From Aequorivita antarctica (GTDB taxonomy: Bacteria > Bacteroidota > Bacteroidia > Flavobacteriales > Flavobacteriaceae): a DNA stretch of 64,000 nt. Of this stretch, positions 36,842-39,030 are shown one piece after another; position 1 is the stretch's first letter, and each line of letters starts with the position of its first letter. A program made the translations under genes and the position numbers. The DNA is taken from contig NZ_VORT01000004.1 of assembly GCF_007997155.1 (NCBI RefSeq), positions 248,001-312,000 of the forward strand, in the 5' to 3' direction. The notes beneath the pieces are model-generated. The model worked only from the letters and a program-made list of their open reading frames with translations. It was not told where the DNA came from and ran no database searches.

Positions 36842-36859
36842 AACTTTATCTGTTAAAGT

Positions 36860-36894
36860 TTTGATATAGAAGTAGTTTGTGTAAATTATTTTTG
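36860..36894 (+). promoter_or_regulatory. Promoter dedicated to the TPP riboswitch RNA
   Basis: TTTG (36860-36863), 23-base spacer, TATTTTTG (36887-36894): an exact match to both Bacteroidota promoter elements. It would start transcription at about 36899-36901, just ahead of the aptamer. Confidence 0.6.
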
Positions 36895-36909
36895 TACATT
36901 TATGAAACT

Positions 36910-36994
36910 ATCATATCGGGGTGCTTAAGTTTAAACAGCTGAGAATAAACCCGTAAAACTTCTAAAAGGATAATGCCAACAGAAGGAATATGAT
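36910..36994 (+). ncRNA. TPP riboswitch aptamer (orphan)
   Basis: The conserved core of the thi-box is present in order. P1: ATCATAT (36910-36916) pairs perfectly with ATATGAT (36988-36994). P2: CGGG (36917-36920) pairs with CCCG (36950-36953), with the conserved GGGGTGC. The CTGAGA motif is at 36939-36944. P4: CTTCT (36959-36963) pairs with AGAAG (36981-36985). P5 carries GGATAATGCC (36968-36977). The aptamer should bind thiamine pyrophosphate. A strong terminator starts 4 bases after P1, but no gene on this strand follows within 1.3 kb; the next gene, prfB, runs the opposite way. TPP riboswitches normally precede thiamine biosynthesis or transport genes. Confidence 0.88.
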
Positions 36995-36997
36995 TTG

Positions 36998-37043
36998 CAA
37001 AGGGAACTTAGATTTATTCAAATCTTGTTCCCTTTGTTTTTTT
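36998..37043 (+). terminator. Terminator of the TPP riboswitch expression platform
   Basis: CAAAGGGAAC (36998-37007) pairs perfectly with GTTCCCTTTG (37027-37036), and an inner AGATTT/AAATCT stem lies inside. Seven T follow. T-run orientation shows it terminates + strand transcripts. Confidence 0.92.
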
Positions 37044-37071: not shown

Positions 37072-38179
37072 CTATAGCTCATCACTCTTCTCCTTCTGCC
37101 CAGTCATCATTAAATAAGCCTTTAAAAACGAATCAATCTCACCATCAAGCATAGCATCAGTATTGCCCGTTTCATGACCTGTGCGCACGTCTTTTACCAA
37201 TTTGTAGGGGTGTAAAACATAGTTGCGTATTTGTGAGCCCCATTCTATTGCAAGTTTGCTATCCTCAATTTCCGCACGTTGGGCGAGTTGTTTACGGAGT
37301 TCAATTTCGTAAAGCTGCGATTTAAGCATTTGCATTGCCTTTTCGCGGTTGTCCAACTGACTTCTAGTTTCGCTGTTGTGGATAATGATTCCGGTAGGGT
37401 GGTGGGTAAGAATGGCCTTGGTTTCTACTTTGTTTACGTTTTGTCCTCCTGCGCCGCTGCTTCGGGCAAAATCCCACGAGATATCGGCAGGGTTTATTTC
37501 AATCTCAATGGTGTCATCTACTAAAGGATAGACATAAACACTCGCAAAACTCGTGTGCCGCTTCGCATTACTATCAAAAGGAGAAATACGTACCAAGCGG
37601 TGAACGCCATTTTCACTCTTTAACCAGCCGAAGGCATATTCACCGTCAATTTCTAGTGTTACGGTTTTCACTCCAGCAACATCACCTGCTTGAAAGTTGA
37701 GTTCTTTTACTTTATAACCGTTTTTTTGCGCCCACATTAGGTACATCCGCATCAGCATTTCGGCCCAATCGCAACTTTCGGTGCCACCGGCACCAGCAGT
37801 AATTTGAAGCACGGCACTCATATCGTCGCCCTCTTCACCAAGCATATTGCGGAATTCAAGTGCTTCAATTGCACTTTCTGCCTTTTCATAAGCTGTATCC
37901 ACATTTTCTGCTTTGCCTTCGCCTTCTTTGTAAAAATCGAGCAGGATTTCAGCTTCTTCGGTAAGGTTTGTAGCGGTTTCGTAGTCGGTGACCCATTTCT
38001 TTTTGGTTCGCAGCACTTTCATAAAAGCTTCTGCTTCGCGCGGGTTGTTCCAAAAATTGGGGTCAAATGTTTTTTCTTCGTCGTTGGTAATCTCTATGCT
38101 TTTGCCAGCAATGTCAAAGATAGCGCCTCAAGGCATCTAGCCGCGCCTTAAGGTCTTTGATTTGGTCTGTTGTTGTCAT
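37072..38179 (-). CDS. prfB: Peptide chain release factor 2, with programmed +1 frameshift
   Basis: RF2 recognises UGA and UAA stop codons and triggers peptidyl-tRNA hydrolysis. The coding sequence starts at the ATG at 38179, reads 21 codons and reaches an in-frame TGA (38116-38114) in the classic context AGG-CGC-TAT-CTT-TGA-C. A +1 slip on CTT continues in the frame read from 38115 to the stop at 37072, giving about 368 residues, normal for RF2. The catalytic GGQ is in SSGAGGQNVNKVET. The frameshift provides autoregulation: low RF2 favours slippage. It is not a sequencing error. Confidence 0.95.
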
Positions 38180-38400: not shown

Positions 38401-39030
38401 ATGAAAAAAATATTTTTCTTTCTTGCATTAATTACAACAAGCATCGGTTTTGCCCAAAACGATGAAGCCTTTGTAAATTCGCTGGTTGCCCAAAAAATGG
38501 CGGAGCTTGAGATGCAGGAAAATCCCGAATATTTTTTAAGAAAAGATTATTGTGATGGAAACATCCAAATGTTTGTAATGCCTGATGGAAAAAACTGCAG
38601 CTCGAAATCAACTTATTATGCTGTGTATGTTTTTTGGAAAGAAGGCGAAGATATAATGAAGATTCAGAAATTTGACAATTGTGGAAGTTTTATGTCTTTT
38701 TCTATCAGCATCAGCAAAAATATCAAGAAAGCGCTAAAGGAAAAGCAAGCTCTAAAAACAGAAAACGTGAAGCCTTATAAGGGCGAGAAGGTTGACAACA
38801 GCGCCTTTGAGAATATGTCTGTGCAATCCTGCCATAAAGAGTATAAATTTATTTTTGATGGTAAGGTTTTTGAAAAAAGTTTTAAAGAATTTGATTTGAC
38901 CAACAATTCCAAATACAAAAATGTAAATTCAGATCACAACAAATCATTGATGCTCATAAAGCTAGATGAAGAAATTTCTGAAATGATAAAGAATTTTGAT
39001 GAAAGCGGAAAATTTTTCCGAGAAAAATAA
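38401..39030 (+). CDS. Secreted protein of unknown function upstream of threonine aldolase
   Basis: 209 residues with a clear signal peptide (MKKIFFFLALITTSIGFAQ). The mature protein is lysine-rich with five cysteines (DYC, KNCSS, DNCGS, SCHK), suggesting disulfides in the periplasm or outside. No family was recognised. It ends 4 bases before the threonine aldolase start and may lead the operon that continues to pncB and pncA, although its function need not be linked. Confidence 0.7.
   Translation: MKKIFFFLALITTSIGFAQNDEAFVNSLVAQKMAELEMQENPEYFLRKDYCDGNIQMFVMPDGKNCSSKSTYYAVYVFWKEGEDIMKIQKFDNCGSFMSFSISISKNIKKALKEKQALKTENVKPYKGEKVDNSAFENMSVQSCHKEYKFIFDGKVFEKSFKEFDLTNNSKYKNVNSDHNKSLMLIKLDEEISEMIKNFDESGKFFREK

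Follow-up and report, generated by a model that had tools for sequence, protein, structure and literature searches.

A TPP aptamer with its own promoter elements and terminator is conserved without a gene among Flavobacteriaceae and may specify a free-standing small RNA

We analyzed a stretch of 64,000 nucleotides from Aequorivita antarctica (contig NZ_VORT01000004.1, positions 248,001 to 312,000; the whole of this stretch is called the window) and found on its plus strand a TPP riboswitch aptamer that has promoter elements and a terminator of its own and no gene directly behind it. Comparative evidence gives good support to the view that aptamer, promoter elements and terminator are kept together as a gene-less unit across genera and at unrelated loci. 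We consider it rather probable that this unit specifies a free-standing, constitutively terminated, TPP-binding small RNA of about 135 nt that probably acts in trans. A TPP-binding small RNA of about 140 nt was one of two readings offered in a preliminary description of this DNA, and it is supported as far as can be judged from sequence. The predicted transcript covers positions 36907 to 37043 (+), with the start placed at about 36907, and scores 146.3 bits against a covariance model, R2 (see below), to which the sequence itself contributed.

The Rfam model of the TPP riboswitch (THI element, RF00059) matched positions 36907 to 37004 (+) with 49.9 bits and an E-value of 1.2e-8 when 901 bases were searched with Infernal, which upholds the aptamer assigned in the preliminary description, though the score lies below the Rfam gathering cut-off of 54.3 bits; for that reason the window gave 0 RF00059 matches at the default cut-off. 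Two of the 21 intact Aequorivita copies (G021 and G001) score above this cut-off and the other 19 below it, while six of seven relatives' loci, chosen partly on the basis of earlier high scores, exceed it. Inspection of pairings and motifs bore out the perfect helices that had been claimed. P1 (ATCATAT/ATATGAT, 36910 to 36916 with 36988 to 36994), P2 (CGGG/CCCG, 36917 to 36920 with 36950 to 36953), P4 (CTTC/GAAG, 36959 to 36962 with 36982 to 36985) and a P5 of 2 bp have zero mismatches in the window copy, all on the plus strand. In the RF00059 alignment, P2 encloses P3 and the CTGAGA motif (36939 to 36944) within 36917 to 36953, and P4 encloses P5 and its loop L5, GGATAATGCC, within 36959 to 36985. 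The aptamer thus contains GGGGTGC, CTGAGA and GGATAATGCC, and the optional P3a is missing.

The same features were followed through a set of 54 loci, made up of 21 from Aequorivita and 33 from 31 other genomes (G353 included). CTGAGA is present at 52 of these loci and replaced by CTGAAA at the other two, GGGGTGC is present at 48, and the L5 sequence TAAT shows no variation among the 28 sequences of our alignment A2. Two-sided changes were found in five of the seven P1 pairs, one P2 pair has such changes in 11 sequences, and covariation was also seen in the P4 and P5 region. Across A2 as a whole (27 distinct rows), two-sided changes occur in 18 of 35 pairs and 95.1% of cells are paired, values reached by 0 of 500 shuffles that ignore kinship among the sequences; when the partners were slid by 1–3 columns, paired cells fell to 41–53%. 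The structure tested in this way was partly derived from the same sequences.

The aptamer is followed by an intrinsic terminator at 36998 to 37043 (+), composed of the 5' arm CAAAGGGAAC, the 3' arm GTTCCCTTTG, an upper stem and a T7 tail. The strong terminator noted previously is therefore present, but it begins about 3 bases after P1 rather than 4. Bases 36900 to 37045 fold with -35.6 kcal/mol (z -3.5), a value equalled by one of 200 shuffles. A mechanical terminator scan did not list the hairpin at 36998 to 37043, though it is plain in sequence and fold. Terminator stems normally drift in sequence. Here the exact arm CAAAGGGA occurs at 43 of the 54 loci and the looser form CAAAG[GA][GA]A at 51, and stem variants mostly co-vary with the opposite arm. 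Since the stem sequence itself is held, against this usual drift and across genera, it is probably read by some partner. Chance reuse of a common terminator was considered and rejected, the hairpin pattern being found at one place in the own genome. Viral contigs searched with one strict pattern gave no match.

Comparison across loci also identified two upstream elements, a GTTAAA box at 36852 to 36857 (+) and TACATTTA at 36895 to 36902 (+), a probable -7 promoter element of the form TAnnTTTA, with a spacing of 37 bases between them in the window. The box lies 32–42 bases upstream of the -7 element at 37 of the 54 loci, 36 of these at 36–38 bases, and TAnnTT[TC][AG] stands just before or at the RNA start at 49; as 21 of the 54 loci belong to one genus, these tallies are not independent counts. 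Among 18 Aequorivita genomes, mean pairwise identity is 87% in the GTTAAA box (GTTAAAGT) and 81% in the -7 element, against 46% in the spacer. In the window alone the pair is not significant (39 of 100 shuffles contain one), and its support as a putative promoter is comparative. The promoter proposed in the preliminary description, TTTG-N23-TATTTTTG, can be read literally at 36860 to 36894 but is not the conserved element. The start predicted there, about 10 bases before P1, likewise has to be moved, as the conserved -7 element would place transcription initiation almost at P1. A hidden short ORF was rejected as not conserved, with an ATG just before or at P1 in two of 21 Aequorivita (G000 and G006). 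As a marker for a wider regulon, GTTAAA-N36-38-TAnnTTTR was rejected, since it is rarer than its reversed control in three genomes (28 versus 49, 34 versus 44 and 31 versus 46). Individual sites resembling GTTAAA-N36-38-TAnnTTTA occur in three Aequorivita genomes, e.g., G000:C11:475326-475376 and G000:C11:390982-391032, and hint at an upstream box common to several genes.

In the window, the next plus-strand gene starts at 38401, 1.3 kb off, and the interval holds nothing but short ORFs antisense inside prfB. The prfB gene (peptide chain release factor 2, with PCRF and RF-1 domains) occupies 37072 to 38022 on the minus strand and is a convergent neighbour outside the unit; the absence of a plus-strand gene for more than 1.3 kb and the convergent prfB had both been described correctly. 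Upstream of the long prfB frame, CTTTGAC at 38113 to 38119 (minus strand) is presumably the usual programmed frameshift site of RF2. The RNA does not lie in the leader of a thiamine gene, as a cis-acting riboswitch would.

Within the genus, a 176-base stretch of the locus matches 23 of 27 other Aequorivita genomes and finds no match in G008, G012, G019 and G026. Twenty of these others and the own genome have an intact unit (21 of 28 Aequorivita genomes), and at all 21 loci the first downstream gene is on the opposite strand. In G018 aptamer and promoter have decayed and the hairpin persists, and G027 retains the hairpin without the aptamer. The sequence that adjoins the hairpin in G013 looks foreign, lacks the usual congener neighbours and encodes different proteins (L067, C77:21700-29700); this is probably a chimeric contig, and the genome was counted neither as intact nor among the six of 28 in which the RNA is missing or broken. 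Mean pairwise identity is 89% for the aptamer and 87% for the terminator, compared with 40% at four-fold sites of prfB, 54% at its third positions taken together and 38% for the intergenic sequence upstream. These figures come from the 18 of 21 intact genomes with a whole prfB (G004, G003 and G009 were left out). Judged by these identities, the free-standing RNA is under strong purifying selection and is no young relic.

The prfB gene is the direct neighbour of the RNA in 17 of the 21 intact Aequorivita genomes, and the RNA stands beside prfB in three named Aequorivita contigs as well (L147–L149); A. soesokkakensis is among the species that have the RNA. Other sequence or opposite-strand genes separate the two in G016, G003 and G025, whose RNA is thus not next to prfB, and G004 has no prfB within about 4 kb of the RNA. 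Large genes of cell-surface type were observed at two of these loci, between terminator and prfB in G016 (L056 2383-4059) and in place of prfB in G004 (L050 4111-8080), and the borders of these genes show additional, partial matches to the hairpin of the terminator.

The thiamine synthesis gene thiC was found in two of 28 Aequorivita genomes, both of which have a TPP riboswitch before the operon in addition to the free-standing RNA. With thiC in just these two, the genus would mostly depend on uptake of thiamine or a precursor. The RNA is intact in 19 of 26 genomes without thiC and in both with it, so its presence does not follow thiamine synthesis.

To describe the distribution outside Aequorivita we used two covariance models. 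Model R1, built on aptamer and terminator of the 21 Aequorivita sequences, uncovered the first other genera, and model R2, built from 28 sequences of many genera, was run on 397 sampled Flavobacteriaceae genomes. R2 matched at 75 bits or more in 33 of the 397 genomes, belonging to 23 genera (22 besides Aequorivita); 17 of the 33 contributed to the model and match by construction, and 16 had no part in it. The large covariance searches used strict filters, and all genome counts are accordingly lower bounds. At an E-value of 1e-5 or better, R2 matched 131 genomes, which fall into two score groups, the 33 that reach 75 bits and a remainder that does not go beyond 67.1 bits. The lower group was characterised from sixteen loci that we read, each of which has a same-strand gene close behind and no conserved hairpin. 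One genome with an intermediate score of 67.1 bits (G353) possesses the conserved hairpin, and we included it in the family. Among 196 genomes of the order, none outside Flavobacteriaceae exceeded 58 bits. As the RNA is missing or broken in six of 28 Aequorivita and was undetected at 75 bits in 364 of 397 genomes of the family, it is dispensable.

Thirty-five non-Aequorivita loci were fetched and two were dropped, one being an ordinary riboswitch before thiamine synthesis genes (G443b) and the other a 65.1-bit match with no conserved hairpin and with a same-strand gene directly behind (G272). At the 33 loci retained, the RNA lies directly beside prfB in G150 and G251 and one gene away from it in G127, G103 and G322. 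Elsewhere the neighbours, named by eye from the sequence, include hisI-like (G327, G125), murI-like (G393, G379, G258b), recG-like (G122) and other genes, and in G146, G347, G443, G293 and G063 the RNA follows an M28-like peptidase gene. Conversely, among 80 named prfB loci a strong R1 match was present in the flank examined in five, the strongest other match reaching 25.7 bits; in an Altibacter MAG (L150) the RNA is adjacent and convergent to prfB. The next downstream ORF is convergent at 24 of the 33 loci and on the same strand at nine. The same-strand genes start 162–289 bases on and encode six protein types, and a Pfam search with one protein of each type returned a fatty acid hydroxylase, a GHL10 glycosyl hydrolase and four without a match, with no thiamine-related match among the six. 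Across relatives, the RNA is conserved without a gene, and no recognised thiamine gene stands directly behind it at any of the 54 loci. G258 (L274, L275) and G314 (L268, L269) each have the RNA at two separate loci. The L269 copy (G314 C27:739700-747800) is divergent and precedes what, judged by eye, seem to be conjugative-transfer genes, the first of which has no Pfam match; the RNA may therefore be carried by mobile elements as well.

Classical attenuation requires that one strand can pair either within the aptamer or within the terminator. When we looked for helices of at least five pairs shared by half of the 28 sequences, none joined an aptamer strand to the 5' arm of the terminator. When aptamer and 5' arm were folded alone, arm–aptamer pairs were absent in 25 of 28 sequences, the exceptions being G293 with six pairs (the P2 strand and its neighbours), G122 with two and G251 with one, and P1 kept at least five pairs in 23 of the 28 folds. 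The 3' arm could pair weakly with the aptamer GGGG (25 of 28) or with the 3' strand of P4 (17–18 of 28), but it is made after its own 5' arm; by such pairing, or by that of the 5' arm in G293, some coupling may still occur. With no conserved antiterminator strand found, we infer that termination is constitutive and yields a separate RNA of about 135 nt, and since there is neither a gene in cis nor a constant neighbour, the RNA is likely, by exclusion, to act in trans. In the mechanism that we propose, RNA polymerase would start at about 36907, transcribe the aptamer and stop at the built-in hairpin, and TPP would fold P1 to P5. The RNA, folded or unfolded, would then act on a partner, RNA or protein, elsewhere than at its own locus; contact would most likely be made by the conserved AAAGGGAA/UUCCCUUU hairpin, or by strands of the aptamer that become accessible at low TPP. 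Such an RNA would signal thiamine status without belonging to any mRNA. We give an even chance to the broader proposal of a dedicated family of TPP-sensing small RNA genes in Flavobacteriaceae, among them a genus in which most genomes have no thiC; each gene would join a TPP aptamer to a hairpin of conserved sequence under a conserved promoter of its own, and its RNA would report thiamine status in trans.

Several other explanations were weighed against this free-standing RNA. If TPP altered the efficiency of termination, some read-through RNA would be the output, and the unit would be a regulated attenuator. The gap of about 3 bases between P1 and terminator resembles that of attenuators, and the weak pairing of the 3' arm, the six-pair alternative in G293 and the nine same-strand genes at non-Aequorivita loci would suit such a switch. 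In 25 of 28 sequences, however, the 5' arm is unpaired with the aptamer before the 3' arm exists, and neighbours vary between genera, the same-strand genes themselves being of six types, which makes a regulated attenuator unlikely. A related proposal, which takes up the antisense RNA suggested in the preliminary description and in which read-through at low TPP would lower release factor 2, fits the adjacent and convergent arrangement in 17 of 21 Aequorivita, G150, G251 and the Altibacter MAG. It also has a precedent in the one antisense SAM-I riboswitch described for Clostridium acetobutylicum (PMC2258182), which is alike in being convergent to a gene; there the target operon fits the ligand, whereas the convergent neighbours of the present RNA differ from locus to locus and we recognised no thiamine-related gene among them. 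In four Aequorivita genomes, however, RNA and prfB are not adjacent (G016, G003, G025 and G004), the flank examined contained no strong match at 75 of 80 named prfB loci, most other genera carry the RNA beside hisI-, murI-, recG-like or other genes, and no conserved antiterminator was found. We regard this antisense control as very improbable.

The aptamer might instead have changed its ligand, to a relative of TPP or another metabolite, and still be free-standing. Scores under the RF00059 cut-off in 19 of 21 Aequorivita copies and the CTGAAA variant at two loci would be in keeping with this, and a free-standing aptamer has no gene to betray its ligand; but CTGAGA is kept at 52 of 54 loci, L5 TAAT is invariant in A2 and several members exceed the TPP cut-off, and a changed ligand is in our judgement quite unlikely. 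That the hairpin alone matters, as a terminator or insulator between convergent genes with the aptamer incidental, would agree with its persistence in G027 and G018, in which the aptamer is gone or decayed. The aptamer is, however, equally conserved, it shows two-sided changes in P1, P2, P4 and P5 and it accompanies the hairpin at unrelated loci, while the own genome has the pattern at one place; we hold this explanation to be highly improbable. The preliminary description also considered a recent gene loss, which would make the unit a relic of a thiamine gene with its control region still undecayed. Aptamer and terminator do resemble a normal attenuator leader, and the same two genomes, G018 with aptamer and promoter decayed and G027 without the aptamer, could be cases of such decay. 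Against it, 21 of 28 Aequorivita genomes keep the unit intact without a gene, at 87–89% identity compared with 40% at four-fold sites, and the same unit occurs in different places in 22 other genera with no recognised thiamine gene behind any of the 54 loci, so that a relic is scarcely credible.

Riboswitches are generally thought of as parts of mRNAs. The RNA described here shares with ordinary TPP riboswitches the aptamer fold, the binding motifs and a terminator directly after the aptamer, but it has no gene directly behind it, conserved promoter elements of its own, a conserved terminator stem sequence and no conserved antiterminator that we found. In Listeria, SreA and SreB are reportedly trans-acting SAM riboswitches released from ordinary riboswitch leaders, as Loh et al. 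are said to have described in 2009; they are alike in being aptamer–terminator RNAs described as acting in trans, whereas the present RNA is free-standing without a leader gene and its ligand is probably TPP. The RZ small RNA of Sinorhizobium meliloti is reported to derive from a SAM-II riboswitch (PMC9373788). It likewise is a terminated riboswitch RNA forming a small RNA, but it reportedly comes from the metZ leader, whereas the RNA here looks like a separate transcription unit. Barrick and Breaker (2007; PMC2258182) drew attention to a few aptamers that look functional yet lack fitting genes, and left it open whether these act in trans or were recently orphaned. For the present set, the orphaned-relic answer to this question can be excluded, and the trans-acting answer becomes testable. 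The aptamer is of a known kind. In a literature search with thin coverage of subscription journals, no conserved free-standing TPP RNA family was among the matches listed, which is weak evidence of absence. If a family of gene-less metabolite aptamers is conserved in at least 23 genera and in unrelated places, this would show directly that aptamers are kept as sensors in their own right.

Possible targets were sought from the RNA itself. Its conserved bases all lie in the aptamer or the terminator stem and no free conserved seed was seen, which is unusual for a base-pairing small RNA. Exact matches to CAAAGGGAAC or its complement in six genomes, observed versus reversed, numbered 10 versus 4, 8 versus 4, 10 versus 4, 20 versus 11, 12 versus 12 and 15 versus 15, where the counts include the two or more of the RNA's own; this 10-mer scan gave a slight excess in four of the six genomes and no clear target. 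Thiamine transport (pnuC-like) genes were set aside as a target, as six of 28 such loci read by eye gave nothing decisive, with a TPP aptamer just upstream in one (G025) and none in five.

The mRNA of a TonB-receptor-like, putatively thiamine-related gene is the first candidate target and is offered as a lead only. The hairpin arms of the RNA (AAAGGG/CCCUUU) resemble two strands in the leader of this gene that may switch its mRNA, AAAGGGG of the aptamer and CCCCUUUU near the start codon. Against this lead, the leader element also occurs where R2 listed no free-standing RNA (G172, G064; L143, L144), and no clear covariation with that element is seen for hairpin variants such as CAAAGGAAAC. In the own genome, this leader (L074, C32:252100-260200; gene named by eye) is the one further TPP-like match, at 21.6 bits. 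It belongs to the same aptamer class as the free-standing RNA, and differs in that its gene follows about 100 bases on, its P3 is enlarged and its terminator is unrelated. In Aequorivita the TPP aptamer of the leader begins with AAAGGGG, and a strongly conserved GAATAA-CGCCCCTT-TTATTCG lies near the start codon (L074, L075–L086 and L382–L388). Base pairing would be possible between the GAATAA-CGCCCCTT-TTATTC element and the AAAGGGG on the 5' side of the leader's aptamer, and from its sequence this leader looks like a translational expression platform.
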